From Haloprofundus halobius (GTDB taxonomy: Archaea > Halobacteriota > Halobacteria > Halobacteriales > Haloferacaceae), in NCBI RefSeq assembly GCF_020097835.1, contig NZ_CP083667.1, positions 310,001 to 374,000 of the forward strand: a DNA stretch of 64,000 bases, written 5' to 3'. Shown piece after piece: positions 7,720-50,853 of the stretch. The position numbers were made by a program, and so were the translations under genes. Under the pieces are notes generated by a model. The model was not told the DNA's origin, did no database searches, and worked only from the letters and a program-made list of their open reading frames with translations. Numbering within the stretch: the stretch's first letter is position 1; the number at the start of each line of letters is the position of its first letter.

Positions 7720-7756
7720 CGGGTCGGCGCGGGCGGTGAGCACAAACGCTCGCCGC

Positions 7757-24855: not shown

Positions 24856-26304
24856 TCAGTAGTTGTCGTAGACGGTCTTCTCGATGGTGTAGAAGTCGAG
24901 ACCGGCGTCGCCCTGCTCGCGCCACGTCTCGGAGGACGACCGTTTGAACCCGCCGAAGGGGACGTGCAGTTCGAGGCCGGTCGTCTTCTCGTTGACCTTC
25001 ACGACGCCCGCCTCGGCCTCGTCGACGAAGCGGTTGGCCTCGGTGTGGTCGTCGGTGACGACGCTCGCCGAGAGGCCGTACTCGACGCCGTTGGCGACGT
25101 CGAGCCCCTCGTCGAAGTCGCTTACCTTCATGACGGCGACGACGGGGCCGAACACCTCGTCGCACGCAATGCGCATCTCCGGGTCGACGTCGGTGAAGAC
25201 GGTCGGTTCGACGAAGTACCCCTCCTCGACGTCGTCGCCCTCGGGGACGCCGCCGCCCGCCGCGAGCGTCGCCCCCTCGTCTTGGGCGATGTCGACGTAT
25301 TCGAGCGTCGACTCCAGTTCGCTCTGGCTGACCTGCGGCCCCATCTCGTGGTCGTTTCCGGGACCGATGTCGATTGACTCCGCGCGGTCGACCAGTTCGG
25401 CGACGAACTCGTCGTAGACGTCCTCGTGGACGATGGCGCGCGAGCAGGCGGTGCAGGACTGCCCGGTGGTGCCGAATCCGCCGGTCGCGACGATGTCGGC
25501 GGCCTCCGAGGGGTCCGCCGAGGCGGCGACGACCGTCGGATTCTTGCCGCCGAGCTCGGTCTGGACGCGCTTGCCGGCGTCGGTGGCCTGCTCGTACACC
25601 ATCTCGCCGACCTGACTGCTGCCGGTGAAGGAGACGGCGTCGGTGCCCTCGTTCTCGATGAACTCGTTGCCGACCGAACTGCCGGGACCGGTCACGACGT
25701 TGAGGACGCCGTCGGGCAGTCCCGCGTCGTCGAGTGCTCGCGCGATCTCGACGACGACCCCCGGAGCCAGCGACGCGGGCTTGAGAACGACGGTGTTGCC
25801 CGCCGCTAGTGCCGGAGCGAGTTTCCACGCCGGGATGGCGATGGGGTAGTTCCACGGCGTAATCAGCGCCGCGACGCCGACCGGTTCCTGTCGGGTGTAG
25901 AGGTTCGTGTTCCGGCTGCTCGGACCTTTGACGGTGCCGCCGAGGTCCGCCGCCTTGACCGAAAAGTAGTGGAAGATGTCGATGGCGCGCTGTACCTCGC
26001 CGGCGGCCTCCGCGCGCGCCTTCCCCTCCTCGGCGACGAGCAGGTCGGTCAGTTCCTCTTTGCGCTGGCCGAGAAGCGTCCCGGCCTCGCGGAGGATGCT
26101 CCCGCGCTCGGGGCCAGGAGTGGTCCGCCACTCCTCGGCGGCGGCCACCGCGGCGTCGACGGCCTCGGCCGCGTCGTCGGCGCTGGATTGCTGGTAACTC
26201 GCCACGACTTCGCTCGGATTCGCAGGGTTCGTCACGTCGATAGTCTCGCCGGTCTCGGAGGCGACCCACTCTCCGTCGACGTAGTTCTCGTTAGTCTCCG
26301 TCAT
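24856..26304 (-). CDS. xacF: Alpha-ketoglutarate semialdehyde (2,5-dioxopentanoate) dehydrogenase
   Basis: A 482-residue aldehyde dehydrogenase. Folate-dependent-type N-terminus, NAD-binding ITPWNYPIAIPAWKLAPALA, catalytic Glu in ELGGKNP, catalytic Cys in TTGQSCTACSR, and VFGPVVAVMK. In the oxidative pentose pathway this family turns alpha-ketoglutarate semialdehyde into alpha-ketoglutarate. The assignment rests on its place beside the pentonate dehydratase, KDP dehydratase and xylose-type dehydrogenase genes, as in Haloferax volcanii. I use the second ATG (26304), which has an AT-rich box (GAATAGTAA) 24-31 nt upstream; 26313 is the alternative. It is divergent from the Gfo gene. Confidence 0.85.
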   Translation of the reverse strand: MTETNENYVDGEWVASETGETIDVTNPANPSEVVASYQQSSADDAAEAVDAAVAAAEEWRTTPGPERGSILREAGTLLGQRKEELTDLLVAEEGKARAEAAGEVQRAIDIFHYFSVKAADLGGTVKGPSSRNTNLYTRQEPVGVAALITPWNYPIAIPAWKLAPALAAGNTVVLKPASLAPGVVVEIARALDDAGLPDGVLNVVTGPGSSVGNEFIENEGTDAVSFTGSSQVGEMVYEQATDAGKRVQTELGGKNPTVVAASADPSEAADIVATGGFGTTGQSCTACSRAIVHEDVYDEFVAELVDRAESIDIGPGNDHEMGPQVSQSELESTLEYVDIAQDEGATLAAGGGVPEGDDVEEGYFVEPTVFTDVDPEMRIACDEVFGPVVAVMKVSDFDEGLDVANGVEYGLSASVVTDDHTEANRFVDEAEAGVVKVNEKTTGLELHVPFGGFKRSSSETWREQGDAGLDFYTIEKTVYDNY

Positions 26305-26423
26305 CGATGGCATCTTCTCGGTTCGCGCTTACTATTCTTACGGTTCTGTGAAGAACTGTCACGGTCCTCTCGGCGTCCCCGACGCTCCACTACACTTTTG
26401 CTGGTCGCCTCGAACCGCAGACC

Positions 26424-27515: not shown

Positions 27516-27799
27516 CCGTCGGCTGTCGACGTCGTCGGCGGTCGCCGCACGAGGTAGCGTTGTCGCTGCGTGGAGCCGTCTCCAGCGGGCTCGGAACCCC
27601 CAGAGCGACGCACGCCTCTACGTCGTCGACGGACGAGCGTGAGCCACACCGCCGCTGACGAGCACGAATCGTGTCGACGACGAGCGTGAACCACAACGAC
27701 GACCACGAACCGTGTCGACGGACGACACCTCGACGACGCTCGGCTGACAGTCGTTCATGCGCAAGATTTACTACCGAGTTTCGGAATATACGGACGCAA

Positions 27800-29038: not shown

Positions 29039-29187
29039 CTCCGTCGGGCCAGAAAATTTCGGATTTGTACTGTTCGACGAGGCGTGAGCCGCGTCGGGTA
29101 CGTAACGAGAGAGTGCGACATCCGGACGTTCGAGCGTCGTTCGCTTGGCAGCGATACTCTTTTAACGACCTCTGTTCATCACCCAGT

Positions 29188-30072
29188 ATGCGTTACTACC
29201 GACTCCCCGGCGGAGAGCATAGATCACTCTCCGAATCGTTGGTTGTCATCGACGACGAAGACGACGCGTACGACCTGACGACGGCCTCCGAAGATCTGAG
29301 CTCCTTCACCGATCTTGCCCGCGCGGCGAACGCGAGCGGCCGGTCGGTCGACGCCATCGCCCGCGACCGAATCCCGGACGCGGAGCGCCGAGATCTCGGC
29401 GACGTCGAGGAGAACGCGCTCTTACCGGTCGTCCCGGACGAAGTCTGGGCGGCGGGCGTCACCTACCGAATCAGCGAAGAGGCCCGCAAGGCCGAGAGCG
29501 GGAAGCCCGAGGTGTACATCGACGTGTACGAACGCGACCGACCGGAACTGTTCCTGAAGGCGACGCCGTCGCGGACGGTCGGTCCGCGCGAGTCGATCGG
29601 CGTGCGCGGCGACTCCGAGTGGGACGTCCCCGAACCCGAACTGGGCGTCGTGCTCCACCGCGGCGATGTCGTCGGCTACACCATCGGCAACGACGTCTCC
29701 AGTCGTGACATCGAAGGCGACAATCCGCTTTATCTCCCGCAGGCGAAGGTGTACGACCGCTGCTGCTCGCTCGGTCCCTGCGTGGCGACCGAAGCCGTCG
29801 TCGAGGATCCCCACGACCTCACGATGTCGCTCGCTATCGAACGCGACGGGGAGGTCGTCTACGAGGGGTCGACGTCAACCAGCGAGATGGCGACCTCCTG
29901 CGAGACCCTCGTCGACTACCTCGGCCGGCACAACACCCTCCCGGAGACGCTCGTCTTGCTGACGGGGACGGCGCTCGTCCCACCCGAGTCGTTTACGCTC
30001 GAAGAAGGAGACCGCGTCTCCATCGACATCGATCACATCGGTCGACTCGTCAACGACACCGTCGTTGTCTGA
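29188..30072 (+). CDS. xacE: 2-keto-3-deoxypentonate dehydratase, FAH family
   Basis: A 294-residue fumarylacetoacetate-hydrolase-fold enzyme. Mg-binding residues occur in WDVPEPELGVVLHRG and YTIGNDVSSRDIEG. In the Weimberg pathway this family dehydrates 2-keto-3-deoxy-xylonate or -arabinonate to alpha-ketoglutarate semialdehyde, the substrate of the dehydrogenase at 24856. The start at 29188 (MRYYRLPGGEHRS) has a TATA-like CTTTTA about 27 nt upstream. It follows the dehydratase in the same direction. Confidence 0.9.
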   Translation: MRYYRLPGGEHRSLSESLVVIDDEDDAYDLTTASEDLSSFTDLARAANASGRSVDAIARDRIPDAERRDLGDVEENALLPVVPDEVWAAGVTYRISEEARKAESGKPEVYIDVYERDRPELFLKATPSRTVGPRESIGVRGDSEWDVPEPELGVVLHRGDVVGYTIGNDVSSRDIEGDNPLYLPQAKVYDRCCSLGPCVATEAVVEDPHDLTMSLAIERDGEVVYEGSTSTSEMATSCETLVDYLGRHNTLPETLVLLTGTALVPPESFTLEEGDRVSIDIDHIGRLVNDTVVV

Positions 30073-33341: not shown

Positions 33342-33539
33342 CTCATTTCGTCCCGTCGAAACGCTCTCGGAGCGATGACAGAGTTGTGACCGAGTGTTAC
33401 TGGAATCGGTCGACGCGTTGGAGAGGATTCAGTAACAGTCCTCATTCGACGTTCCGTAGCTGTTCACTAGGAGTTCGCAGAAAGCTCTGTTGACACGTTC
33501 CGTTACAAAACCATATGCGTAATAGATGTCGCGGGTCGT

Positions 33540-33665
33540 CGAACCCGCTCGGCCACATCGGCGACCCGATGGAATTCGGCAACACGGTGGCGTTCCTCTC
33601 GTCGCCGAAGTCGGGCTACATCAACGGACAGTCGACAGTCATCGACGGCAGGACCGGCAGGTCAA
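33540..33665 (+). pseudogene. C-terminal fragment of an SDR dehydrogenase
   Basis: The frame NPLGHIGDPMEFGNTVAFLS followed by SPKSGYINGQSTVIDG matches the end of short-chain dehydrogenases (xxRxGxPxE..xxVxFLaSxxsxYinGqxxxVDGG). The Rossmann fold and catalytic YxxxK are missing. It precedes broken cupin and FAH genes on the same strand, so it may be what remains of an SDR from that operon. Confidence 0.7.
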
Positions 33666-33744
33666 ACCTCCTACCGTCCTCCAAACGCGCCGTTGGGCGG
33701 GGCTGTCGAACCTCGCCGCAGACGAAACTCCTTTTTCCACCGAC

Positions 33745-34120
33745 TGTGAGAGACGCTCACGGATCACGTTCCGTTCGACGACGCCGAGACCTACGAACCC
33801 GACGACGGCTGGATACGCGCCGCGCTCGCCGGCAGCGACGCTTTCACCTCCAGGTGGTTCGAGAAGCCGCCGGGACACAGTCGCCGATGCACAACCACGA
33901 GAACAAACAGGTGTGCATCTGTCCGGAGAGCGAGTTGACGCTCTACAACGAATACGGCGAGGAGCACACGCTCCAAAAGTACGACTCGGTCCTCCTCGAC
34001 TCGTGGGAGCCCCACCGCGTCGAGAACACGGGTGACGAGCGGGCCATCGGTCTGGACGTGTTCGCGCCCGGATGCGGATTCAACTTCTGGACCGACCGAG
34101 AAGACGGCGACGCGGAGTAG
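33745..34120 (+). pseudogene. Frameshifted cupin-domain protein
   Basis: Frame one reads TLTDHVPFDDAETYEPDDGW, then IRAALAGSDAFTSRWFEKPPGHS; frame two continues SPMHNHENKQVCICPESELT and ends GCGFNFWTDREDGDAE. A one-base loss around 33880 separates them. Metal-binding cupin motif HNHENKQ and a C-terminal PHRVEN remain. No start codon is evident in the first frame. The stop is 3 bp before the FAH start, so they formed an operon. The original role may have been sugar binding, isomerisation or sensing. Confidence 0.65.
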
Positions 34121-35502: not shown

Positions 35503-36282
35503 TCAACGCTGTTCATGCTGGAGTTCGACGATATTAACGGCCTCTTTGAGTCTCTCCACCAGTTTCTCCTCGGTATCACGGGAGGCCAATCGGGAGTTTG
35601 GGCCCGCAACCGACATCGCACCGATGACCTCACCGGTGTTTTTTCGGACTGGGACTCCAAACGCTCGCACACCGACGATATGTTCTTCGCTCTCGATAGA
35701 GTACTCTCGCTGCCGAGTCGCTTCGAGATCTTCAAATAGTTTGCCTTGATCGGTAATTGAATGTTTCGTCGTTTTCGCAAGGCCATGTTCCTCGACGAAA
35801 TCCTCCACGAACTCATCTGAACGAAACGCCAACATCGCTTTCCCCATTGCGGTGAGGTTGAGTGGCGTCCGAGACCCTACTGGGACATCATCCCAGATGG
35901 CGTTCTCTCCCTCGGAGCCGTAAATGATGACCCGTTCGCCGTCCTCGTGAACACCCAAATTGACGGCTTCGCCAGTTTCCCGGGCGAGCCGGTCAACTTC
36001 AGCTCGTCCCGTCTGAAAGAGCGAGAATGAGTGTCGCAGTTGGCCCCCGTGGAGGAGAATACGAAGTGACAATCGATACCTGCCGTCTTGATTGATCGCG
36101 TAGCCCGTGTTCTCAAGTGTTTTTAAATACGAGTGCGCTGTTGTCTTTGGGATATTCAGTTGATTGGCCAATTCAGTAACACCCGTTTCTTCCACGGCTG
36201 TTAGGTGTTCCACTATTTCAAACGTCCTCTCCATGACACTAAGCGAACTGCGGCCATCATTTGAAACGTCTTGGCCATCCAT
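35503..36282 (-). CDS. IclR-family regulator of the rhamnose-type locus
   Basis: A 259-residue IclR protein: HTH at about 18-72 (GVTELANQLNIPKTTAHSYL) and effector domain at about 85-255. In Haloferax an IclR protein (RhcR) controls the L-rhamnose genes, and this one lies between the broken SDR-cupin-FAH genes and the rhamnose-type SDR/lactonase pair, so the same role is plausible. A TATATGTA box about 26 nt upstream of the ATG suits a leaderless message. Confidence 0.92.
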   Translation of the reverse strand: MDGQDVSNDGRSSLSVMERTFEIVEHLTAVEETGVTELANQLNIPKTTAHSYLKTLENTGYAINQDGRYRLSLRILLHGGQLRHSFSLFQTGRAEVDRLARETGEAVNLGVHEDGERVIIYGSEGENAIWDDVPVGSRTPLNLTAMGKAMLAFRSDEFVEDFVEEHGLAKTTKHSITDQGKLFEDLEATRQREYSIESEEHIVGVRAFGVPVRKNTGEVIGAMSVAGPNSRLASRDTEEKLVERLKEAVNIVELQHEQR

Positions 36283-37138: not shown

Positions 37139-37942
37139 ATGGTCGGACACACAGAGTATGACTTCAGTGGAGAATCCGCCATTGTGACAGGTTCTACATC
37201 TGGCATCGGACGAGGGATTGCACGATCACTCATAGAAGCGAACGCGAATGTAGTAGTGAACTCCAGAACCGAGAAGGATGTTCGAGAAACTGCGTCTAGC
37301 CTCGACGAGCTCGGTACCGGCAACGCTATCGGTATCACAGCAGACATGAGCGACCCATCAGCTATCGACGATCTCGTCGAGAACGCGATACAGGAGTTCG
37401 GAGAGATTGATTTACTTGTGAACAACGCGGCAATCTGGCCCATGGAAGGAGAGATGATCGAAGCAAATCTTGACAACTGGGACACCACGATGGATGTGAA
37501 CGTGCGCGCTCAGTTCTACGCCTCGAAGCTCGTTGCGACGCACATGAGAGACGAAGGGATCGAAGGATCCATCGTCAATGTGACGAGCCAGACTGGCGAC
37601 CGACGCACCGGAAACCGGGGGATCTACGGGGTGTCGAACTCGTCAGTAAACGGACTCACCTGGCGAATGGCCGGTGAACTCGCCGAACATGGTATCCGGA
37701 TGAACGCCGTGTCGACTGATTTGGCTGACACCCGACAAGTCAGGTTAGAGGCACACCAAGAGGGAGAAGCGAGCGGTCGGACAGAAGAGGAAGTTCTCGA
37801 CGAGTGGGCGAGCGACCTGCCCCTCGGACGGATGGGGGAACCATCAGATCTGGCCGACGCAGTACTGTTTCTCGCTAGCGACCGCGCTGAATACGTCGTC
37901 GGGACAATACTGCGGGTCGCAGGTGGGGGGAATCTCCAGTGA
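37139..37942 (+). CDS. Short-chain dehydrogenase with Asn in place of the catalytic Lys
   Basis: A 267-residue SDR of the rhamnose-type locus. NAD(P) motif GSTSGIGRG, NNAAIW and catalytic Ser in VTSQTG are normal, but the YxxxK motif reads YGVSN: the catalytic lysine is asparagine. It overlaps the lactonase gene by 4 bp (GTGA), so the two are coupled; an L-rhamnose 1-dehydrogenase or a keto-deoxy-rhamnonate dehydrogenase is suggested by this pairing. The lost lysine leaves activity uncertain, though the operon around it looks intact. Confidence 0.85.
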   Translation: MVGHTEYDFSGESAIVTGSTSGIGRGIARSLIEANANVVVNSRTEKDVRETASSLDELGTGNAIGITADMSDPSAIDDLVENAIQEFGEIDLLVNNAAIWPMEGEMIEANLDNWDTTMDVNVRAQFYASKLVATHMRDEGIEGSIVNVTSQTGDRRTGNRGIYGVSNSSVNGLTWRMAGELAEHGIRMNAVSTDLADTRQVRLEAHQEGEASGRTEEEVLDEWASDLPLGRMGEPSDLADAVLFLASDRAEYVVGTILRVAGGGNLQ

Positions 37943-38808
37943 CCGTCGTCGACGCACACACGCACGTCTGGGGCCCAGACACGGACGACTACCCTTGGCA
38001 AGCAGAAGTTCTTCCGCCCGAGTGGGAGGGGCCATACACCCATACGGACCTGATATCTGATATGGATGCTGCAGGTATAGAAGAGGCAGTAATAGTCACG
38101 ACACCGTTGTACGGCCGGGGAACTGAGGCGAACGATTACACCCAGGCGGCTATCGAAGCTTATCCCAACCGGTTCTACGGTGTCGGACTGATGGACTTCT
38201 TCCCGGAGGATCCGGCCGAAGCCGCCGCATCTCTCCGTCGCTTAGTATCGCTGGATCGGATGGTCGGCGTGCGGATACACGCCGCGCTTGAGTACGCGGA
38301 GTCACCGACAACGCTAGACCGTCACGGAGATTGGTTCCTCGACGACCGTCTCAATCCCGTATTCGAGGCCGCCGCCACCGAGGATGTCGCCATATTCGTC
38401 TTTCCGAAGGCACAGCAACTCACAGACGTGGCGACGGTGATCCGCGAGAATCCCGGCGTCCAGTTCGTCATCGATCACATGGCGTGGCCCGACGAGACAA
38501 CCAACCCACACAAGCGGCCATGGACTGCATTCAAGGAACTCGCCGAGTACACCAACGTCTCGGTCAAGGTAAGCTCCTTACCACGCTCTAGTAAGGAAGA
38601 CTGGCCGTACCGCGACCTATGGGACTACGTCCGGAATCTCGTCGATTGGTACGGTGCTGAGCGCTTGATGCTCGGTTCTGATTACCCCTGGATGGACAGC
38701 TGGGCGACGTACGAGGAGTGTCTATCCTGGGTTGACGAGGCAGGGTTTCTTTCAGATCGCGATCGGCGCTACCTCCGCGGAAAGACGTTCACCTCGATAC
38801 ACAGGTGA
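37939..38808 (+). CDS. Amidohydrolase-2 family sugar lactonase
   Basis: A 289-residue TIM-barrel metal hydrolase of the amidohydrolase-2 family. Metal and active-site motifs: DAHTHVW at the N-terminus, FVIDHMAWP in the middle, LGSDYPW near the end. Members linked to sugar dehydrogenases hydrolyse L-fucono- or L-rhamnono-lactones. It starts with GTG overlapping the stop of the SDR. Followed by a mutarotase and a dehydratase, it fits the lactonase step of non-phosphorylative deoxyhexose oxidation. Confidence 0.87.
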   Translation: MTVVDAHTHVWGPDTDDYPWQAEVLPPEWEGPYTHTDLISDMDAAGIEEAVIVTTPLYGRGTEANDYTQAAIEAYPNRFYGVGLMDFFPEDPAEAAASLRRLVSLDRMVGVRIHAALEYAESPTTLDRHGDWFLDDRLNPVFEAAATEDVAIFVFPKAQQLTDVATVIRENPGVQFVIDHMAWPDETTNPHKRPWTAFKELAEYTNVSVKVSSLPRSSKEDWPYRDLWDYVRNLVDWYGAERLMLGSDYPWMDSWATYEECLSWVDEAGFLSDRDRRYLRGKTFTSIHR

Positions 38809-39672: not shown

Positions 39673-40848
39673 GTGACTCCAGAGATCACAAAGATAGAGA
39701 GCGTCGAATTCGAATATCCGATCGAGAACGTCGGCACAGACGGCAACGGGTTCAACCTTGTCTACGAGCCCGGGTCGACGCTCACGAGTTCGAAAATTGC
39801 AGTTAAAGTCCATACAGACACCGGGATCACCGGTGAGTACGTCGTCGCGACGTCGACGTCGCCGGACCAGATCAGCAAGTTCGCGAAGTTTCTCATCGGG
39901 AAGAACCCGCTCGAGCGCGAACGCCACTGGTCAGAGGTCAAGCGCGCGCTCCGGAAGTACGATCGGATGGGAATGGGGCCCATCGACATCGCGCTGTGGG
40001 ACTTCGCCGGGAAGTACTACGACGCGCCCATCCACGAACTGCTGGGTACCTACCGCGAGCGTCTGCCCGCCTACGCCTCGACGTACCACGGCGACGACGC
40101 GGGCGGCCTGGACTCGCCCGAGGCGTTCGCCGACTTCGCCGAGGAGTGCCTAGAGATGGGGTACGGCGGCTTCAAGATCCACGGTTGGGGCGGCGGCGAC
40201 GAGCTACGCAACCTCGACCGGGAGATCAAGGCCGTCCACGCCGTCGGCGAGCGCGTCGGCGACGAGATGGACCTGATGCACGACCCCGCATGCGAACTCG
40301 AGACGTTCGCTGACGCCCTCAAACTCGGCCGCGCGCTCGACGAGGAGGGATTTTTCTGGTACGAGGACCCCTACCGCGACGGCGGTATCTCCCAGCACGG
40401 CCACCGGAAGTTACGCCAGAAGCTCGACACGCCCATCCTCCAGACCGAGCACGTCAGGGGACTCGAACCGGCCACCGACTTCGTCGCCAACGAGGCGACG
40501 GACTTCATGCGCGCGGACCCGGAGTACGACGCCGGCATCACCGGCGCGATGAAACGCGTCCACGTCGCCGAAGGGTTCGGCATCGACGTGGAGTTTCACG
40601 CCCCGGGGCCGGCTCAGCGCCACTGTATCGCCGCAACGCGCAACGCCAACTACTACGAACTCGCGCTGGTCCACCCCGACTGCCCGAACACCCAGCCGCC
40701 CGTCTACGAGGGCGACTACTCAGACATGATCGACACCATCGACGAGGACGGTACTGTCCCGGTCCCCGACGGTCCCGGCCTCGGCGTTGAGTACGACTGG
40801 GACTACATCGAGGACAACGCAACCGGTAGCGTCCAGACGTACGAATAA
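39673..40848 (+). CDS. Enolase-superfamily sugar-acid dehydratase (rhamnonate type)
   Basis: A 391-residue mandelate racemase/muconate lactonising-type enzyme. Catalytic KxH in GGFKIHGWGG; metal-ligand region LMHDPA, WYEDPY and QTEHVRG; C-terminal His in VEFHAPGPAQ. It starts with GTG; TATA-like sequence (AAATTTTATATT) lies about 20-35 nt upstream. Next to a mutarotase and a lactonase, an L-rhamnonate (or L-fuconate/galactonate-like) dehydratase making a 2-keto-3-deoxy acid is likely. It differs clearly from the xylonate dehydratase at 27800. Confidence 0.87.
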   Translation: MTPEITKIESVEFEYPIENVGTDGNGFNLVYEPGSTLTSSKIAVKVHTDTGITGEYVVATSTSPDQISKFAKFLIGKNPLERERHWSEVKRALRKYDRMGMGPIDIALWDFAGKYYDAPIHELLGTYRERLPAYASTYHGDDAGGLDSPEAFADFAEECLEMGYGGFKIHGWGGGDELRNLDREIKAVHAVGERVGDEMDLMHDPACELETFADALKLGRALDEEGFFWYEDPYRDGGISQHGHRKLRQKLDTPILQTEHVRGLEPATDFVANEATDFMRADPEYDAGITGAMKRVHVAEGFGIDVEFHAPGPAQRHCIAATRNANYYELALVHPDCPNTQPPVYEGDYSDMIDTIDEDGTVPVPDGPGLGVEYDWDYIEDNATGSVQTYE

Positions 40849-41023: not shown

Positions 41024-42877
41024 ATGGAGTTCGATCCAAATAGACGACAGCTTTTACGAGCAGCGGCGGCCGTCCCTGTGCTCGGCCTCGCCAGTCAATC
41101 GGCTGGCGCGACATCGGAACGAGACGATTACTGGGAGTTCGAGAGCGAATTCTTCGCTACTGCTTTCGCTGAGTACTACGGCACATACGACACTAACAGC
41201 GACGGCGACCTCTGGCCCAGTTGCTGGGCAGACGACGGGCACCTGTACACGGCAAACGGGGACGGCACCGGGTTCGCAGATGATTCTTGGTCCGATATCG
41301 TAATGAATCGAGTCTATGGGACGCCCGATACCGGGCTGACAGGTGAGCGCCTCGCTGCTGGAGACGAACTCGGGATCATCTGGGCAGATTCCGACGAGTA
41401 CAACCGCAAACCAACCGGAATGGTAGCTGTTGATGGCAACGGCGACGGTAACGACGAACTGTACCTTGCCTACCAAGATCTTCGTCACTCCCCCGCCGAG
41501 AAGGCGTTCGACGATGCGCCCAACGCGAGTGTTGCAAAATCTGTCGACTACGGAGAGACCTGGGAAACGACCGATGAACCGATGTTTTCCAAGTATGTGT
41601 TCACCACCGTTTTTTTCCTCGATTACGGTCAGAGCCACGAGAATGTCGACGTTCTTGCCCCAAATCCACCCGGACACGGTGATACCGAACCGCCCGGGAC
41701 TGATAGTTCGTCGAAGGAGTCAGGTAATCGCTCACGAGGGATCGGTGCGACAGAGCCGCCAGGACATGGCGGTAACAACCCTGAAGAGTACGTGTATGCG
41801 TACGGCCTGGACAACAACTGGCGCAGTTCGTTTAGCGGGACCGTTCCGGACCCGGTTCGACTCTATCTTGCGCGGGCGCCGATAGACTCGATTATGGACC
41901 GGTCCACGTGGGAATTCTTCGCCGGAGTCACGAACAACGGTCGACCGACGTGGACTGCTGAACTCGAGGGCCGCGAACCCGTTCTGGAAGACGAGAGGCG
42001 CGTGTACGAGGACCAGTACATGGAGAACGGGCCGAACCGCGGCGAATCGATGAGTGTCTTATCGCAGGGCAGCGTCGTGTACAACGAACCACTCGACCGA
42101 TATCTCTACACCTCCTGGACCGAATATACGTTCGAATTCTACGAAGCACCGGAGCCGTGGGGCCCCTGGAAGCTATTCATGCGCAAAGACTTTGGGAGTC
42201 TCCCATGGTTCGGCAACGTTATTGACGAACTGTGCGACGGACCCGTAAATGGAGGGTACGCCACGACCATTCCATCCAAATTTATCGGAGACAACGGCGA
42301 GTCGATGTGGATGCAGGCAAACTGGTTCGAAGGAGTTGCCTGCGGTGGAAATAACTACAATTTCGATCTCAGAGAGTTCGACGTGACGCCGTATGCAGAG
42401 TCGAATCCGTCCAACAAGCGTTCTGCCGACAACCTGGCAACGAGAGACGGAACGGTGCCCATAGAGAAGAGCGCACACTACGGAAACGGCAAGTACTACA
42501 ACTCCGGGGAGAGGGGCCAGAGCGAAGACAGCTGGGATGGGACGGCTAAACCGCTTGACTTCTGGGGATATCTCTGGGAGACGGAATACGCTCTCAATAG
42601 AGTCGTCTACACGACCGGTGCTATGTTCCCCGACGGCGGCTGGTTCGCCAATGACGGCGATAGCTTACGAGTACAGGTTCGCCGTAATTTCGAATGGGTT
42701 GACGTGGACGGACTCTCGATCGAACCAGAGTACCCGTACGATGAAACCGCAGGTCCCAACAACACGTACGAATTCACGTTCGAGGACGATCACGGAGATG
42801 GTGTCCGTATTATCGGTGTTCCAGGCGGGAACGCAGCGTTCACGTCTATCGGTGAACTGGAAGCCTACTACAAGTGA
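41024..42877 (+). CDS. Tat-secreted protein, possible DUF4185-like beta-propeller
   Basis: A 617-residue exported protein. The signal is RRQLLRAAAAVPVLGLASQS with cleavage near AGA-TS; no lipobox, so probably released. The mature part has repeated beta-rich motifs (SCWADDGHLYTANGDG, YLAYQDLR, YGETWETTDEPMF, FYEAPEPWGPWKLF) like the GPWxxF pattern of DUF4185/sialidase-type propellers; a low-complexity PPGHG segment is at about 215-255 and a discoidin-like beta domain may close the protein. It is the only clearly secreted non-transport protein here and could act on an external glycan (glycosidase or lyase). The activity is unknown. Confidence 0.75.
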   Translation: MEFDPNRRQLLRAAAAVPVLGLASQSAGATSERDDYWEFESEFFATAFAEYYGTYDTNSDGDLWPSCWADDGHLYTANGDGTGFADDSWSDIVMNRVYGTPDTGLTGERLAAGDELGIIWADSDEYNRKPTGMVAVDGNGDGNDELYLAYQDLRHSPAEKAFDDAPNASVAKSVDYGETWETTDEPMFSKYVFTTVFFLDYGQSHENVDVLAPNPPGHGDTEPPGTDSSSKESGNRSRGIGATEPPGHGGNNPEEYVYAYGLDNNWRSSFSGTVPDPVRLYLARAPIDSIMDRSTWEFFAGVTNNGRPTWTAELEGREPVLEDERRVYEDQYMENGPNRGESMSVLSQGSVVYNEPLDRYLYTSWTEYTFEFYEAPEPWGPWKLFMRKDFGSLPWFGNVIDELCDGPVNGGYATTIPSKFIGDNGESMWMQANWFEGVACGGNNYNFDLREFDVTPYAESNPSNKRSADNLATRDGTVPIEKSAHYGNGKYYNSGERGQSEDSWDGTAKPLDFWGYLWETEYALNRVVYTTGAMFPDGGWFANDGDSLRVQVRRNFEWVDVDGLSIEPEYPYDETAGPNNTYEFTFEDDHGDGVRIIGVPGGNAAFTSIGELEAYYK

Positions 42878-42968: not shown

Positions 42969-44138
42969 TTAATTTTCTGCTTTGGAGGATTCGTCGACCG
43001 TGGTGACCTCGAGGGCTTCTCTCGTCGTTCCGTGCGCAATCGCGTCGCCGGATTCGTCGAAGAGGTGGATCTTTGAACGGTCGAGGTAGACGTCAAGCGT
43101 GTCCCCTTCCTTGATCTCGGTATCGGGTTCGACCTCCATGAGCAGTTCGTCGACTTCGTGAATGCCCGTCGCGTTCTCGTCCCCGATAAGCAGATAGGTC
43201 ATCACTCGGTTCCCAGTGGGTTCGGTCACGTCAACAGTTACCTGTATGGGTGTCGAGTACTCTTTCTGGCCAGCAGTCTTGTCGCTGGGATAGATGTCCT
43301 CCGGGCGGATACCGAGCGTCACGTTCGCTTTCCGTTCGAGAGCCAGTTGCTCGGTATCAAGTGGGATGTCGAAGCGGGGCGTCTCCAGACCGTCCTCCGT
43401 TACGACCCCGTCGATAAAGTTCATCGACGGAGAGCCGATGAAGCTCGCAACGAACTGGTTTGCCGGTTCGTTGTAACATTCGAGTGGGGGAGCGAATTGC
43501 TGGACCGCTCCCCCGTCCATCACCACGATCCGATCAGACATCGTCATCGCCTCTTCCTGATCGTGGGTGACGTACACCATTGTGACGTCAAGTTCACGCT
43601 GAATGCGCTGTATCTCCGTTCGCATGTGGACGCGCAACTTCGCGTCGAGGTTCGCTAGTGGTTCGTCCATGAGGAAGACGTCCGGATTTCTAACGAGCGC
43701 ACGACCGATCGCGACGCGTTGGCGTTGTCCACCGGATAACTCGTCCGGCATCCGGTTGAGCATTCCCTCTAGCTGGAGGATCTCGACCGCTTCGTCGACC
43801 CGCTGATCGATCTCGTCGGATTCGTATCCCCGCATCCGCAGCCCGAAGCTGATGTTCCCGTAGACGCTCTTGTGGGGGAACAGGGCAATATTTTGGAATA
43901 CCATCGCGATTCCTCGGTCCTTCGGAGCGTCGTCCGTGACATCCCTGCCGCCGATCTCGACCGTTCCGCTCGTCGGGCGAGTCAGCCCCGAGATCATCCC
44001 GAGCGTCGTCGATTTCCCGCAGCCTGACGGACCGACGAACGAGACGAATTCTCCGTCTTCTAGCTTTAGGTTCGTGTTGTTGACCGCAACGACATCACTA
44101 TACTCCTTTCGCAACTCTTGAAGTGTTAATTCTGACAT
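42969..44138 (-). CDS. MalK-type sugar ABC transporter ATPase (second system)
   Basis: A 389-residue CUT1 ATPase: Walker A GPSGCGKST, Q-loop VFQNIALFPH, signature LSGGQRQR, Walker B VFLMDEPLANLDAK, switch region YVTHDQEEAMTMSDR and C-terminal regulatory OB-like domain. Last gene of a four-gene importer operon (binding protein, permease, permease, ATPase). Being in the rhamnose-type locus, it probably powers import of rhamnose or rhamnose-containing oligosaccharides. Confidence 0.94.
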   Translation of the reverse strand: MSELTLQELRKEYSDVVAVNNTNLKLEDGEFVSFVGPSGCGKSTTLGMISGLTRPTSGTVEIGGRDVTDDAPKDRGIAMVFQNIALFPHKSVYGNISFGLRMRGYESDEIDQRVDEAVEILQLEGMLNRMPDELSGGQRQRVAIGRALVRNPDVFLMDEPLANLDAKLRVHMRTEIQRIQRELDVTMVYVTHDQEEAMTMSDRIVVMDGGAVQQFAPPLECYNEPANQFVASFIGSPSMNFIDGVVTEDGLETPRFDIPLDTEQLALERKANVTLGIRPEDIYPSDKTAGQKEYSTPIQVTVDVTEPTGNRVMTYLLIGDENATGIHEVDELLMEVEPDTEIKEGDTLDVYLDRSKIHLFDESGDAIAHGTTREALEVTTVDESSKAEN

Positions 44139-44143
44139 GTGTA

Positions 44144-45115
44144 TTATTCTTTGAGTGCTCCCGCGGTTAGTCCACTAACGATCCGTTCCTGTGCAAGCAA
44201 GACAAGTATCGCGACGGGAATGATCCCTATCAGACTTGCTGCTGCCATGAGGTTGTACGGCGTCTGATACTGGCCGGGGCCTGCCTGAAACTGCATGATA
44301 CCCCAGACGAGTGGTGAACCATTTACAGCCTCGCCGTCCGTCATTAGAAACGAGAAGAAGAACTCGTTGTAGACGGCGATGAACGTCAGTACTCCGGCAG
44401 TGACGACACCCGGCGCCGAGAGCGGAACGATAACTCGGAAGAGAGCCCCCAGCCGGGTCGTTCCCTCAATTCGGGCCGCGTCTTCGAGCCCATCCGGGAT
44501 CTGACTGTAGAATACTGTTAGGATGTAGATCGCGAAGGGCATTGTCAATGCACTCAGCGGAGTGACAATCGCCCACGGTGTGTTGTACAGGTCGGGCAAT
44601 GAGACCCCAAACAACACCGTATTCCCCGTAAGGAGATTGAATAACGGTACGAGGACCGCTGCAGGGGGAAAGTACGAGATGACCAGTAACACGAGGAGGA
44701 GCGGCGTCCGACCTCGAAATTCGAAGCGGCCGAACGCGTATCCTGCGAGACTTCCGAGGATCAGCACGAGAGCCGTCACGAAGGTAGCGATAAAGATGCT
44801 ATTGAATATATATATATGGAAGGGGACGGCCTGGAACACTTCCACGAAGGCTCCAAAGTTAAACCCTCGAGGATAGGGCCCCATGCCGGCGATCATGTTG
44901 TTCGGGGTGATCGCGAGGATGACCAACCAGTAAAAGGGAAATAACGTCGTCACGAGGAAGAATATCCCAAGCAGATAGAACGCCGCCTTGTAGGCTATCG
45001 AAGGGTTCGCAATTACCCGCTGGACGAGGCTATTGATCCCTGATTCTGTGCTTTCGGTGTCAGTTTGACGCGGCATGTTGGACGCCGCATCGTCGGTGTC
45101 TGTTGGTTCTGTCAT
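44144..45115 (-). CDS. Sugar ABC permease (MalG type, second system)
   Basis: A 323-residue permease with six hydrophobic helices preceded by a polar N-terminal tail of about 40 residues, and an EAA loop (DGLEDAARIEGTTRLGALFR). Five bases separate it from the ATPase gene and one from the upstream permease, so it is tightly coupled. Confidence 0.92.
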   Translation of the reverse strand: MTEPTDTDDAASNMPRQTDTESTESGINSLVQRVIANPSIAYKAAFYLLGIFFLVTTLFPFYWLVILAITPNNMIAGMGPYPRGFNFGAFVEVFQAVPFHIYIFNSIFIATFVTALVLILGSLAGYAFGRFEFRGRTPLLLVLLVISYFPPAAVLVPLFNLLTGNTVLFGVSLPDLYNTPWAIVTPLSALTMPFAIYILTVFYSQIPDGLEDAARIEGTTRLGALFRVIVPLSAPGVVTAGVLTFIAVYNEFFFSFLMTDGEAVNGSPLVWGIMQFQAGPGQYQTPYNLMAAASLIGIIPVAILVLLAQERIVSGLTAGALKE

Positions 45116-45116
45116 A

Positions 45117-46070
45117 TCAGAGGCTTTCCTCCCTGAATCGGTAGAGATAGATGCTGACGAAGATGGCGACGACTACGGCGGTAAATACTGCGATGGTCGC
45201 GGACGTCCCGTAGAACCGCTGACGGAAGGTACCGACGACCATACACGAGAGCGACGGTACGGTGTTACAGCCAGCCATTATCTCAATGATTCCGTACACT
45301 TTCAGCGCCTGTATGCTCCGGAAGAGGAGCGCAACGAGGACCGCTGGCAGGATGAGCGGGAACGTGATCTCCTTGAACTGTTGCCACTTAGACGCACCGG
45401 AGACCTTGGCAACGTTATAGAGGTCTCGATCAATCGTCTGGATACCGGCAAGCACGATTAGCGTGACAAACGAAGTCGTCTTCCAGATGTCCGCAAGGAT
45501 GATGATGAGCAACGAATCCGTCGTGTTGGACAGTGGGGCACTAGAGATCAGGCCCATATTGTGAAGTGGTTCAACCCCGAAGCCGATCCCCGGGGAGAAG
45601 AGCAGGTAGAACATCATCCCGTGAATAGCGATCGGAACCGCCCACGGGAGGAGTACGATCAGGCGGGCCCATCTTCGTCCACGGAAGGATCGATCTAGGA
45701 AGAGCGCCTGTACGACACCGAGTACTGCTTCGATGAACACGCTGACGATCGTGAAGACGAGTGTAACGATTAGTGAACTCTGGAGTGGTCTATTCAGATC
45801 GATAAACGGAGCTGGAAGCAGGGTCGAGAGGTCCCCGGTGAACAAGTCGACGTAGTTCTGCACACCGACAAAATCACCTAGATCTCCCGCCTGAACGATC
45901 GAATCGGCGTAGAACGACATTTCGACCGTCCGCAACAGGGGCCAAAACGCGAGAATGGCCAGCAGGATGCTCGTCGGAGTTAATAGCAGGTAGACGAACT
46001 GCGTATCCGTAAGTCCCTCAATCCAGTAGAGGAATCGGCGATCCAACCTGTATGATTCTTTTAAATTCAT
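45117..46070 (-). CDS. Sugar ABC permease (MalF type, second system)
   Basis: A 317-residue permease with six hydrophobic helices and the EAA-type loop (YNVAKVSGASKWQQFKEITF). N-terminal LLLTPTSILLAILAFWPLLR is typical of the MalF/UgpA group. It follows the binding-protein gene by about 40 bp. Confidence 0.92.
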   Translation of the reverse strand: MNLKESYRLDRRFLYWIEGLTDTQFVYLLLTPTSILLAILAFWPLLRTVEMSFYADSIVQAGDLGDFVGVQNYVDLFTGDLSTLLPAPFIDLNRPLQSSLIVTLVFTIVSVFIEAVLGVVQALFLDRSFRGRRWARLIVLLPWAVPIAIHGMMFYLLFSPGIGFGVEPLHNMGLISSAPLSNTTDSLLIIILADIWKTTSFVTLIVLAGIQTIDRDLYNVAKVSGASKWQQFKEITFPLILPAVLVALLFRSIQALKVYGIIEIMAGCNTVPSLSCMVVGTFRQRFYGTSATIAVFTAVVVAIFVSIYLYRFREESL

Positions 46071-46112
46071 GAATTTGTGTGTAATGGAATCAGTTCGGAG
46101 TGTGATGGGCTT

Positions 46113-47621
46113 CTATTCGGAGAGTTCCGCTTCGATGTCCTCGATAGACGATTTCAGGTTACTCATTGCCTGTTCGGGCGACTTTTCCTGATTGAGACAG
46201 CTGTTGACTTCCTGCGAGATCTGGCTCGACTCCGGACCCCACGCCACCGTTGCAGCACGCGGAATTGCTCGTGGCGCAGTTGTCCGAAGGACATCGAGAT
46301 ACCGGCTCACCGGGCCGATGCCCTCGAGTGCGTCGGATTCGAGGAGCGAGATGTCCGGGGGAAGCGTCCCGGTGAGCTCGAACAACGTGGTACGGAACTC
46401 CTCGTTTCCGACCATCGCTTCTAGGACCTGAACGGCTTCCTCGACGTTCTCAGAGTTGGGATTGACCATGCACGTCCAGCCACCGACGAAACTACGACCG
46501 ACTCCGCCAGTTCCCTCGTATTCCCCTTCACCGTCCGGGACGCCGTACGGGATAGGCATGACGCCGAGGTCTTCTCCGTGAGCGTCTTCTGCACCGCTCG
46601 TCGTCCACGTGGTCGGCCAGTTTCGGTTTGCGATGGCATTTCCGTCCACAAACGGCTGAAGTGACGTGTCTTCGGCCCACTGGAGGGTGGCCGACGGGGA
46701 GATATCACCTGCAAACCCGTCGAGCGCGTGCTCGTCATCTTCCCCGTGGATGAATGTTCGAATCATGCGAAGCGCTTGGTAGTGGGGCTCTTCGTCCACC
46801 GTTACTGGCCGGTCCCCGACGGGGCCGAAAAGGTTGTCGCGACCGCCAAAGTACGCGCCACCGAAGCTGGTCATCCACTCGTTGTAGTTACAACAGGACA
46901 GGCCCTCGTAAGCGCTTCCTTGGAATGTGAACCCGTAATCGATGTCGGAATTCTGTTCCAGGACATCGGCAATCATCTGCGAGAAATCCTGCCACGACAT
47001 GCCCTCCGTCATCCAGTTCTCGCCTTCAGGGTCGTATCCGGCGTCTTCGACGAGGTCCTTGCGATACTGAATCCCGGCAATGTCGGTGTTGTACTGCACA
47101 CCGAAGAGATTACCGTCGCGGTCAGTCATCGTCCCTCGCAGTTGTTCAACGTAATTCTCTTGCATGTAGTCAAGCGACTCTTGGGACATGTGTTCGCTCA
47201 GGTTGAGCACCTGGCCCCTGACTACGTAGGGAATCGACCAAGCGGTGTCAGGCGTGATGATATCTGGAGTACTCCGTCCAGAACTGAGCCACTGGTTGTA
47301 CTGGGACTGGGTGTCGTCAGTCGTTTCACCAGGTTGGTCAGCCAATTCGACGGTGATGTTATCTGGAAGTTCTGCTTCTAACGTTTCGCTGATCGCCTCT
47401 TTTTCATCGTCATCGTAGTCGTGAGTGTTCCAAGTGATCGTGACACCTCCATCACCGGAGTTCCCGACTGTCGTCCCTTCACCGCCACTGTTGCCGCTAT
47501 TTCCGGAACAGCCTGCGAGACCAGCTGCGATTCCCGTTGCTCCGACGGATTCGACGAATTGCCGTCGTGAAAATCCGTTTACTGATGATTCTACTCTCTG
47601 CTGCTCGTTACTGTCTGACAT
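46113..47621 (-). CDS. Sugar-binding lipoprotein, Tat-exported (second system)
   Basis: A 502-residue family 1 extracellular solute-binding protein. Tat motif SRRQFVESVGATG, lipobox-like LAGC followed by a Ser/Gly/Asn linker. It determines substrate choice for the importer downstream. The promoter has CACTTATTAG about 28 nt before the ATG and is preceded by AGCAAC, the same arrangement as the other binding-protein gene (start 16303), which hints at a shared upstream element. Confidence 0.93.
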   Translation of the reverse strand: MSDSNEQQRVESSVNGFSRRQFVESVGATGIAAGLAGCSGNSGNSGGEGTTVGNSGDGGVTITWNTHDYDDDEKEAISETLEAELPDNITVELADQPGETTDDTQSQYNQWLSSGRSTPDIITPDTAWSIPYVVRGQVLNLSEHMSQESLDYMQENYVEQLRGTMTDRDGNLFGVQYNTDIAGIQYRKDLVEDAGYDPEGENWMTEGMSWQDFSQMIADVLEQNSDIDYGFTFQGSAYEGLSCCNYNEWMTSFGGAYFGGRDNLFGPVGDRPVTVDEEPHYQALRMIRTFIHGEDDEHALDGFAGDISPSATLQWAEDTSLQPFVDGNAIANRNWPTTWTTSGAEDAHGEDLGVMPIPYGVPDGEGEYEGTGGVGRSFVGGWTCMVNPNSENVEEAVQVLEAMVGNEEFRTTLFELTGTLPPDISLLESDALEGIGPVSRYLDVLRTTAPRAIPRAATVAWGPESSQISQEVNSCLNQEKSPEQAMSNLKSSIEDIEAELSE

Positions 47622-47923: not shown

Positions 47924-48721
47924 GTGTTTGATAGCTTAAAACGGCCGGAGTACACAGGTCTCAACCGATGTTACCCCTGCACCATACTCAACATCGTTCT
48001 TCTAGTTGGTCTCGGTTTTCTCGTTACGTCCGTCTCTGTCGTTGGTGCCTCAATTCTTCTCATAATCGGCGGTGTCTCAATCTGGTTTCGGGGATACATC
48101 ATTCCCTATACACCGTTTATCGGCCCGTGGTTCAGGAATAAGCTCTTTAAGATCACAGGTCAAGAAATTCCATCCGGGTCAAATGACGGATCGTTAGCGA
48201 GCGACGACATGTCTGGAGAGAGAGTTGTAGAAGAATTACTTCGCACAGACATTTTAGAGTTGACAGGGGGAGACGACCTGGTCCTCTCCGAACCATTTCG
48301 GTCCAAGTGGCGTGCAAAGATGGAAGAAGTCCGGAGACTAGATCTCGACAAATTCGAACGGTGGGCGACAATGATCCTCCAGGACTGCGATATTTCGGGG
48401 GTCGAAGCGAAAGATCAACGCTGGGCAGACTCATACGTGGTTGTCACGTTCCCGTTCGGAGAGGAGTCGATACTTCGATATCCGGTGGCCGTGGCTGAAT
48501 TTTCGTCGCTCGCAACACTAGAGGGATACGGGCTGGAACCGCCCGTTCGCCTTCACAGTTGTGGACCCCTTAGAGGTTTCCTCACGGAGTGCCCGCTCTG
48601 TGATACACCATTGGAAGTGTCACGATATGATGGGTGTTGCGGCAATCCACGCGCCGGAGAAGAAAGTCCGGGTCTCATTTGCAAGCAGTGCCGAACGGTT
48701 CTGTATAAGTTCCCCAAATAA
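47924..48721 (+). CDS. Conserved haloarchaeal membrane protein with C-terminal zinc ribbon
   Basis: A 265-residue protein beginning MFDSLKRPEYTGLNRCYPCT, a signature I recall from widespread uncharacterised haloarchaeal proteins. Two hydrophobic segments (about 22-58) anchor it; a soluble acidic region follows; the C-terminus has paired cysteines (CPLC, then CC, then CKQC) forming a likely zinc ribbon. GTG start. Function unknown. It is unlike the surrounding sugar genes and may be a chromosomal bystander. Confidence 0.8.
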   Translation: MFDSLKRPEYTGLNRCYPCTILNIVLLVGLGFLVTSVSVVGASILLIIGGVSIWFRGYIIPYTPFIGPWFRNKLFKITGQEIPSGSNDGSLASDDMSGERVVEELLRTDILELTGGDDLVLSEPFRSKWRAKMEEVRRLDLDKFERWATMILQDCDISGVEAKDQRWADSYVVVTFPFGEESILRYPVAVAEFSSLATLEGYGLEPPVRLHSCGPLRGFLTECPLCDTPLEVSRYDGCCGNPRAGEESPGLICKQCRTVLYKFPK

Positions 48722-48937: not shown

Positions 48938-50026
48938 ATGCGGTTCAGAACCGGGTTAGACGACATTACCCAGCTAAGTGACGAGAAAAGTAGATCGATC
49001 ACCGCAGAAAATCCGGATGGTGCTGTCGGTGCAGGGGGAAAAGAGGCAAGCAATCTCGGACCAGCGCGAAAAGGTCGGCCGTGTCTGCGAAACGTCGAAC
49101 CGGGGAGTACGGAAACGCTAGCCGAAATCGACGGTCCCGGCGTCATCAAGCATATCTGGATGACCGTCCGAGACGAGACGGACTCCGGACCAACTGTACT
49201 TCGCGACCTCGTGCTACGGATGTACTGGGACGACGAGAATGACCCGTCCGTAGAGGTCCCTCTTGGTGACTTCTTCTGTAACGGACACGCGATGCGATGT
49301 GAAGTGAACTCGGAGCCGATCATCGTCGTCCCGGAAGGAGGGTTCAACTGTTATTTCCCGATGCCGTTCCGCGATGACGCCAAGATCACAATCGAATCGG
49401 AGCATCCGGAGGAAATCCCCGCGCTTTTCTACCAGATAGACTACTCACTAGTTCCGGAACTGGACGACGACACGGCGTACTTTCACGCGCAGTGGCGCCG
49501 GGAGAAGCCGACGACCATCAAAGAGGACTACACGATCGTGGACGATATCTCCGGCAAAGGACACTTCGTCGGAACCTATTTGGCCTGGACGGCGCTGGAA
49601 GAGTACTGGTGGGGTGAAGGCGAAGTGAAGTGTTACATTGACGGGGACGAAGAGTATCCCACCATCTGCGGTACTGGCACCGAAGATTATGTTGGAGGTG
49701 CCTGGTGTTTCAACGATCCCTCGGGCAGCGAGGAGACGTTCCCGTCGCCAATGACGTACTCGACCCCTTATCTCGGATATCCGTTGTACGACGACGGTAG
49801 TGACGGACAGGGACGACCGCCGAGGCACGGCCTTTATCGGTGGCATATCCCCGATCCGATTCACTTCGACGAGGACCTGCGCGTGACCGTCCAACAGATT
49901 GGTCACAACAGTCGTGAGCTATTCGAGCGGTCGGACGCCATTTCGTCAGTCGCGTATTGGTATCAATCAGAACCCCACAACAGCTTCCCAGAGTTACCTG
50001 AGCGAAACGAACGGATACCACTATAA
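48938..50026 (+). CDS. GH172 (DUF2961) glycosidase
   Basis: A 362-residue protein of the DUF2961 family, now GH172, which includes alpha-D-fructofuranosidase and D-arabinofuranosidases. Family motifs: GPGVIKHIWMT (about 67-76), GEGEVKCYIDGDEEYPTI (about 226-243) and CGTGTEDYVGGAW (about 244-256); E229 and E249 correspond to the paired catalytic carboxylates of the family. No signal peptide, so cytoplasmic. An ACATTTATGA box is about 30 nt upstream. With GH51 and GH127 it gives the organism enzymes for several arabinofuranoside linkages. D-arabinan or fructan activity cannot be told apart from sequence. Confidence 0.88.
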   Translation: MRFRTGLDDITQLSDEKSRSITAENPDGAVGAGGKEASNLGPARKGRPCLRNVEPGSTETLAEIDGPGVIKHIWMTVRDETDSGPTVLRDLVLRMYWDDENDPSVEVPLGDFFCNGHAMRCEVNSEPIIVVPEGGFNCYFPMPFRDDAKITIESEHPEEIPALFYQIDYSLVPELDDDTAYFHAQWRREKPTTIKEDYTIVDDISGKGHFVGTYLAWTALEEYWWGEGEVKCYIDGDEEYPTICGTGTEDYVGGAWCFNDPSGSEETFPSPMTYSTPYLGYPLYDDGSDGQGRPPRHGLYRWHIPDPIHFDEDLRVTVQQIGHNSRELFERSDAISSVAYWYQSEPHNSFPELPERNERIPL

Positions 50027-50192: not shown

Positions 50193-50851
50193 TTATACCC
50201 CGCCAGTCGAGACGTACAGGTAGCTGCCGATACTGCCGGAGAACACGATCTCGAAGAGGTCGGTTCCGACGGCGATGGGAACCGGCACGCTGATGATGGA
50301 GAACAGCGCGGGCATGTGGATGAAGCCGTCGCCGCGCAAGTTCAGCATCGGCGGGATGTGGTACGACTGAATCTTCTTGGCGATGTCGGGGATGTCGTCC
50401 GTGTCGACTTCGGCGTCGCTGTCGAGGTCGTGGCTGACGCCGACGTCACTATCGTCATCGCCTGTCAGCTGTTGGTAGGTGAAGAACGATACCGCCAAGC
50501 AGTACCGCGTAGATGACGCTGATGAGCGCGTCGGCACCCCCATGTGCCTGTAAGCCGACAACCAACTACTTGCCGATTTCGGACCGATGGTGTCCTGATG
50601 ATCATTGACACGCCGAGTCTGTAGTCGACCTGTCCGAGGTCACGGTGTTTGAGCGTCCCGATGACGGGGGTCCCGAACACGAACGCGAGACCGCTCCCGA
50701 CGGCGACTGTTGGCTCGTAACCCATCACGAGCTAGACGGGTGTCACGAGGAACGACCCACCCATGCCGAAGAAGCCGAATAGGACGCCAATCATGAGTCC
50801 GAAGACGACCAACAGTACGGGCAGCGCCACGCTGATCCCGCAGATGTCCAT
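50193..50851 (-). pseudogene. TauE/SafE sulfite exporter family, multiply broken
   Basis: From the ATG at 50851 the frame reads FGFFGMGGSFLVTPV, an in-frame TAG (near 50732), LVMGYEPTVAVGSGLAFVFG, then GTLKHRDLGQVDYRLGVSMI before at least two frameshifts. Later frames keep GGADALISVIYAVLLGG, FFTYQQL, HIPPMLNLRGDG and EIVFSGSIGSYLY. These are hallmark TauE/SafE segments. It is preceded by a DUF7512-like small gene, its usual partner. Confidence 0.8.
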
Positions 50852-50853
50852 GA

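Follow-up and report, generated by a model that had tools for sequence, protein, structure and literature searches.

The gene at 41024-42877 of the window, the 64,000-nucleotide stretch of Haloprofundus halobius DNA analysed here, is best read as encoding the extracellular depolymerase of a horizontally acquired, GC-poor island for D-arabinan utilisation. The explanation that best covers the whole is secreted GH183-like D-arabinan cleavage followed by import, GH172 hydrolysis and oxidation of the pentose, and we give it a probability of about 0.6. Within it, the prediction of a secreted hydrolase of GH183 type has good support, D-arabinofuranose is the probable substrate of this enzyme, and the role proposed for the locus as a whole is plausible. 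The combination suggests an archaeon able to eat a bacterial wall sugar. The coordinates of the relevant features are collected in Table 1.

The open reading frame starts with ATG, occupies exactly 41024..42877 on the plus strand and encodes 617 amino acids. It is a real gene, since orthologues are 40-59% identical over near-full length and its AlphaFold model is confident (pLDDT 88.7); its own genome (G000, 3.95 Mb, 5 contigs) carries one copy. The N-terminus, MEFDPNRRQLLRAAAAVPVLGLASQSAGA, combines a twin-arginine motif with a hydrophobic stretch and has no lipobox cysteine. The full-length protein matched no Pfam or NCBIfam family beyond a weak hit to the Pfam TAT_signal model (E 0.035). 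The mature protein is strongly acidic (pI 4.15; 4.1 for the whole ORF product), with a net acidic fraction of 0.11 versus a median of 0.036 among relatives, as expected for export by a haloarchaeon. The gene is flanked on one side by the enolase-family dehydratase gene, on the same strand, and on the other by a convergent ABC importer (42969-47621, minus strand). This position agrees with the placement given in the preliminary description, which had suggested a gene product that could feed the importer.

Table 1. Features of the locus, with positions in the window, strand and basis of assignment
Feature	Position	Strand	Basis
Secreted propeller protein, predicted GH183-like D-arabinan hydrolase	41024..42877	+	Sequence, orthologues, AlphaFold model, fold search
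Tat signal peptide, residues 1-31, RRQLL motif, end approximate	41024..41116	+	Sequence
Beta-propeller catalytic domain (predicted), residues ~43-456, distant DUF4185/GH183	41150..42391	+	Models, profile-profile comparison, fold search
C-terminal beta-sandwich, residues ~478-617, discoidin/CBM-like	42455..42874	+	Model, sequence
Asp62, predicted nucleophile, equivalent of EndoMA1 Asp33	41207..41209	+	Invariant in 50 relatives; PMC10509167
Asp80, predicted acid/base, equivalent of EndoMA1 Asp51	41261..41263	+	Invariant in 50 relatives; PMC10509167
2,5-Dioxovalerate (2-oxoglutarate semialdehyde) dehydrogenase	24856..26313	-	NF052305, 878 bits versus cut-off 750
FAA-hydrolase family, predicted 2-keto-3-deoxypentonate dehydratase (XacE-like)	29065..30072	+	Profile, Haloarcula match
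IclR-type regulator, candidate for control of the locus	35503..36282	-	Profile match
SDR sugar dehydrogenase, predicted pentose 1-dehydrogenase	37139..37942	+	Profiles, Haloarcula cluster match
Amidohydrolase-2 lactonase, predicted pentonolactonase	37939..38808	+	Profiles, Haloarcula cluster match
Enolase-superfamily sugar acid dehydratase, predicted D-pentonate (D-arabinonate or D-ribonate) dehydratase	39673..40848	+	Profiles, Haloarcula match
ABC importer ATPase, MalK/UgpC type	42969..44138	-	Profile matches
ABC importer permease	44144..45115	-	Profile match
ABC importer permease	45117..46070	-	Profile match
ABC importer solute-binding protein, SBP_bac_8	46113..47621	-	Profile match
DUF2961/GH172 glycoside hydrolase	48938..50026	+	Pfam, 315 bits versus cut-off 27
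GH172 Glu227, aligned with alphaFFase1 Glu270, WWGEG motif	49616..49618	+	Alignment
GH172 Glu249, aligned with alphaFFase1 Glu291, GTGTED motif	49682..49684	+	Alignment
GH172 Cys257, Araf/Fruf position	49706..49708	+	Alignment

The AlphaFold model, built with 45 sequences (pTM 0.88), consists of an all-beta propeller followed by a C-terminal beta-sandwich; residues 1-34 and 224-249 are disordered in it. Matches of F5/8 type to the C-terminal domain are weak and occur in two or three relatives. A fold search with the full model against the PDB returned EndoMA1 (8ic1), an endo-D-arabinanase of GH183, first with an E value of 1.9e-19, the next protein following at 2.2e-11. A model of the propeller alone (pLDDT 89.0) again retrieved EndoMA1 first (E 6.5e-16, with a moderate TM-score of 0.54), and AraH2 of Mycobacterium tuberculosis ranked fourth (TMt 0.65). 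The fold required of GH183, a five-bladed propeller related to EndoMA1, is thus recognised by fold match rather than by a count of blades from coordinates. The protein is grouped with glycoside hydrolases and not with non-enzymatic surface proteins, and together with the Tat signal this upholds the earlier prediction of an exported glycan-active enzyme. A sequence-profile search against the PDB retrieved mostly Asp-box sialidases.

The same preliminary description had seen hints of a DUF4185/sialidase-like propeller, and these are confirmed by the propeller model and by the match of the propeller alone to Pfam DUF4185 (PF13810; E 1e-7). Because that match scores 32 bits, below the gathering cut-off of 39.5, the protein is not filed as a DUF4185 member. 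DUF4185 was matched by 45 of 50 aligned family members, with a best E value of 1.2e-14; a PF13810 search over 99 relatives gave no match anywhere, controls included, and is uninformative. A profile-profile comparison with the true DUF4185 proteins of the same loci gave a probability of 98.6% (E 6.9e-16). The protein represents a branch related to, but outside, Pfam DUF4185, and this branch very likely works in the same way as the DUF4185/GH183 enzymes. We know of no assayed member of this branch. DUF4185 has been reported from bacteria and fungi, and the D-arabinan-cutting family GH183 was first described in 2023, in bacteria and phage (PMC10115798, PMC10509167).

The GH183 enzymes retain configuration and use two catalytic aspartates, which lie 18 positions apart as Asp33/Asp51 in EndoMA1 and Asp170/Asp188 in DgGH4185b (PMC10509167, PMC10115798). 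In the haloarchaeal protein D62 and D80 have the same spacing, and this holds for 50/50 aligned sequences, across which several further polar residues are also invariant. In bona fide DUF4185 proteins of the same loci the aspartates of the TDLG and GDT motifs are 17 or 18 apart. Where no catalytic assignment had been considered possible, the Asp pair now allows a predicted one. The third carboxylate of GH183 (Glu243 in EndoMA1, the Glu of GELSV) aligns with Gln348; in DgGH4185b, a mutant in the third carboxylate largely kept its activity (PMC10115798).

The enzymes encoded nearby bear on the substrate. The solute-binding protein of the importer belongs to SBP_bac_8, the class present in the D-arabinan locus of Microbacterium (PMC10509167). 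Beyond the importer lies a GH172 gene whose product matches DUF2961 above the cut-off, has both catalytic Glu motifs (WWGEGE and GTGTED) and, by eye, no signal peptide. Its nearest solved relative is the exo-alpha-D-arabinofuranosidase ExoMA1 (E 4.7e-84, versus 2e-44 for alphaFFase1). Enzymes specific for arabinose and for fructose are told apart by a position that holds Asn253 in ExoMA1 and Gly299 in alphaFFase1 (PMC10509167). The window enzyme has a non-glycine residue there, Cys257, as does the D-arabinofuranosidase DgGH172c. GH172 is rare among haloarchaea (6/391 genomes). Two of the other haloarchaeal enzymes, in genomes G111 and G315, have Gly at this position and ketohexokinase-like neighbours, with GH32 as well in G111, which would suit a putative action on fructosides in their case but not in that of the window enzyme. 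This Gly/Cys position only partly allays the concern that GH172 proteins of haloarchaea are fructosidases. The G111 locus (L093, 3429-17861), with two GH32 genes, the Gly-type GH172, a ketohexokinase-like gene and an importer 49-62% identical to that of the window, appears to serve fructan use, including a step like that of alphaFFase1. In two further haloarchaeal loci (L094 in G160 and L095 in G252, the latter at 476-7923 and with GH3 as well) GH172 adjoins sulfatases, suggesting a sulfated furanoside glycan. The gap between importer and GH172 in the window (47924-48721) encodes a 265-residue protein with an N-terminal hydrophobic stretch, Cys-rich C-terminal motifs and no Pfam match.

On the other side of the propeller gene the window holds what had been called a rhamnose locus. 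The NCBIfam models for L-rhamnose dehydrogenase (147 versus 400 bits) and L-rhamnonate dehydratase (73 versus 393) score far under their cut-offs. A single cluster of Haloarcula halophila contains counterparts of the SDR (63% identity), the amidohydrolase (62%) and the dehydratase (82%). It also encodes a KDP-dehydratase-like FAA protein (61%), and its aldehyde dehydrogenase shares 67% identity with the 2,5-dioxovalerate dehydrogenase of the window. By these matches the supposed rhamnose genes appear to serve pentose oxidation, and the label is corrected. The haloarchaeal set of 2,5-dioxovalerate dehydrogenase, dehydratase, lactonase and dehydrogenase is complete in the window. D-Arabinonate and D-xylonate both yield D-2-keto-3-deoxypentonate, and D-arabinose would therefore need no more than three steps of its own; formation of this compound from D-arabinonate has been demonstrated (PMC6336799). 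The region 24856-30072 resembles the Haloferax xac set, with 2,5-dioxovalerate dehydrogenase, Gfo/Idh, enolase-family dehydratase and FAA genes and an adjacent GH3.

Apart from its own genome, the protein was absent from 391 genomes of the class and from a 393-genome sample of the phylum; with no other archaeal carrier among those searched, archaeal conservation cannot serve to test the locus. The sequence by itself, used as query against viral sequences and genomes, retrieved no relative at first. Among plasmids, the search returned borderline DUF4185 proteins from Novosphingobium, together with a Flammeovirga protein whose similarity is confined to the C-terminal domain. A single-sequence query being insufficient, the search alignment was composed of the plasmid relatives and one viral-contig relative, and with it a scan of the genome collection found 376 relatives, for which 79 loci were kept. 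The closest relative is encoded by a Thermomicrobiales MAG (59% identity), followed by proteins of Pseudonocardiaceae, Actinopolymorpha, Nocardia and others (49-54%). The orthologues in the 40-59% range are mostly from Actinobacteria, also from Thermomicrobiales, and remoter relatives occur in Bacillota, Acidobacteria and Planctomycetes. In a tree whose forks are open, the haloarchaeal protein is placed with sequences from Thermomicrobiota and Actinomycetota, and the simplest reading is that the gene was probably gained horizontally from bacteria. Planctomycete and other distant relatives (L058-L084) mostly have ~370-450 extra residues N-terminal to the propeller, with ORF starts as predicted and not refined.

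The gene context of these relatives was compared by profile. GH172 was found within 23/53 close loci, GH116 and a fucose-isomerase-like gene each within 10/53, all three within 0/26 distant loci; an FGGY kinase was found within 10/53 close and 1/26 distant loci. Since GH183 profile counts may take in the family under study itself, the GH172 and GH116 counts were relied on. The four gene types GH172, GH116, fucose-isomerase-like and FGGY kinase are parts of the Microbacterium D-arabinan locus (PMC10509167). In three loci (L017, L023, L030) the orthologue lies in a contiguous same-strand run with GH172 or GH183 genes, and GH172 also accompanies members close to the haloarchaeal protein (L017 and, by profile, L007, L011 and L071). 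Most of the nearest orthologues (Nocardia, Pseudonocardiales, Thermomicrobiales) have no obvious D-arabinan locus within 8 kb, and some of them could remodel their own cell walls. Long genes next to the orthologues in Saccharopolyspora, Nocardia and Microlunatus were suspected of encoding arabinosyltransferases, but checking did not bear this out.

Base composition sets the locus apart. The genes between 37.1 and 50.0 kb have a GC content of 0.51-0.59, except for the dehydratase (0.64), versus 0.64-0.71 for the flanking genes tested, which fits a presumably acquired block. The dehydratase, with its own GC content, is widespread in haloarchaeal plasmids. At the right edge of the block (50200-51000) a stretch looks, by eye, like the decayed remains of a membrane permease, and near the left edge (33515-34120) an ORF that fuses an SDR tail to a cupin domain is probably a frameshifted remnant.

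In view of these data a complete route can be proposed. The fold, the Asp pair, the GH172 identity and the orthologue context come from sequence and models, and from them we infer the activity, the exact substrate, the endo action and all fluxes. The Tat-secreted, salt-adapted hydrolase would act outside the cell on an alpha-linked D-arabinofuranosyl polymer, cutting it in a double displacement that retains configuration. Asp62 would serve as the nucleophile and Asp80 as the acid/base, while the C-terminal beta-sandwich of the hydrolase may anchor it to the glycan. The importer would bring the oligosaccharides in and the cytoplasmic GH172 would free D-arabinose. This sugar would then be oxidised to D-2-keto-3-deoxypentonate by the SDR dehydrogenase, lactonase and dehydratase. 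Since D-2-keto-3-deoxypentonate is also an intermediate of D-xylose degradation, the FAA protein and 2,5-dioxovalerate dehydrogenase encoded upstream in the window could complete the route to 2-oxoglutarate. GH116 is absent from the genome, which would leave beta-linked ends in place.

Other substrates must be weighed against D-arabinan. Haloarcula possesses an enolase-superfamily dehydratase specific for D-ribonate (PMC8551123), which keeps D-ribose among the candidate substrates, and the window dehydratase, with its 82% identity to the Haloarcula pentose-cluster enzyme, may be this D-ribonate enzyme and not a D-arabinonate enzyme. The propeller enzyme and GH172 would then free D-ribofuranosyl units. 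In Flammeovirga (L003, 8780-10726) the C-terminal domain occurs in a secreted ADP-ribosylglycohydrolase-family protein encoded next to a ribokinase and a sugar transporter, a fusion that would suit ribose. Yet to our knowledge GH172 and GH183 have no reported ribosidase activity, the actinobacterial loci pair the orthologues with GH116, GH183 and the fucose-isomerase-like and FGGY genes expected for D-arabinose, and the dehydratase has a GC content of its own and a wide spread in haloarchaeal plasmids; a D-ribose locus is unlikely. We regard as quite improbable a D-fructofuranoside locus, in which GH172 would be an alpha-D-fructofuranosidase and the propeller enzyme would act on a fructan-like glycan. 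The G111 locus described above and, in the window, a ketohexokinase at 56638 and a DeoC-type aldolase at 57937 speak for it. However, the glycine that lets alphaFFase1 take fructose is kept in the G111 and G315 enzymes and replaced by Cys in the window, fructose metabolism has no place for the dehydrogenase, lactonase and dehydratase, and the ketohexokinase sits outside the GC-poor block.

L-Fucose shares its configuration with D-arabinose, and the oxidation enzymes could be fucose enzymes of a fucose or fucoidan locus; the best match of the lactonase is L-fucono-1,5-lactonase, and sulfatases lie beside GH172 in G160 and G252 and at 58759 in the window. That match reaches 47 bits, far below the 400-bit cut-off, no fucosidase family was found among the window genes scanned with Pfam, and the GH172/GH183-type context points to Araf, so that this assignment seems very unlikely. 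Equally little credence, or slightly less, goes to a non-catalytic surface protein that merely captures arabinan: propellers can lose catalysis and a CBM-like domain is present, but the Asp pair and the polar residues are invariant across 50 relatives. The rhamnosidase or lyase envisaged in the preliminary description, acting on rhamnogalacturonan or ulvan to feed a rhamnose pathway, is the least probable of all. L-rhamnose pathways do share the SDR, enolase-family and FAA combination, and PL24 lyases have the general propeller fold, but PL24 matches were some ten orders of magnitude weaker than that of EndoMA1, no rhamnosidase (GH78, GH106) or rhamnose lyase profile of Pfam or NCBIfam matched the protein, the rhamnose-specific models fail as noted, and 2,5-dioxovalerate dehydrogenase is the end point of the partner cluster. 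Orthologue context and the neighbouring GH172 point instead to D-arabinofuranose.

The proposed D-arabinan island can be compared with known systems. With the GH183 enzymes (EndoMA1, 8hhv/8ic1; DgGH4185b; AraH2, 8an0) the protein shares the propeller fold, the spacing of the Asp pair, secretion, a C-terminal beta-sandwich as in EndoMA1, and GH172 and sugar ABC importer neighbours. It differs in falling below the DUF4185 cut-off, in its ~15% identity to EndoMA1, longer insertions and archaeal origin, and in having Gln348 aligned with the Glu of GELSV. The GH172 has both catalytic Glu motifs of ExoMA1 (8ic8), DgGH172c (8ah3) and alphaFFase1 (7v1v), and has Cys257 where ExoMA1 has Asn and alphaFFase1 Gly. 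GH183 enzymes are sought as tools for work on the cell walls of mycobacteria. The branch described here escapes the Pfam threshold although its members number in the hundreds (376 in one scan), often beside known D-arabinan genes; it therefore offers new D-arabinofuranose enzymes that can be tested, in this case a high-salt one.

The literature searched contained no archaeal D-arabinan locus and nothing joining D-arabinan with haloarchaea, and the papers naming both GH172 and archaea were, by title and abstract, not about an archaeal GH172. We see an even chance that this is the first archaeal D-arabinan utilisation, in which a secreted, bacterial-derived new family related to GH183 and an archaeal oxidative pentose pathway together convert actinobacterial wall arabinan to 2-oxoglutarate. 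If so, the haloarchaeal diet extends to a bacterial wall glycan and a bacterial depolymerase has been coupled to an archaeal oxidative pathway. The locus of Microbacterium arabinogalactanolyticum, composed of GH183, GH172, GH116, an SBP_bac_8 importer, an isomerase and a kinase, has the same layout of extracellular endo enzyme (predicted here), importer and intracellular GH172 without signal peptide. In contrast, the haloarchaeal genome lacks GH116, and the predicted fate of D-arabinose is oxidation to 2-oxoglutarate, not isomerisation and phosphorylation. The Haloferax xac genes and the Haloarcula ribose/xylose/arabinose pathway have the same dehydrogenase, lactonase, enolase-family dehydratase, FAA dehydratase and 2,5-dioxovalerate dehydrogenase; what sets the window apart is that these enzymes come together with GH172, an importer and a secreted enzyme of GH183 type, and that D-arabinose is the predicted substrate.
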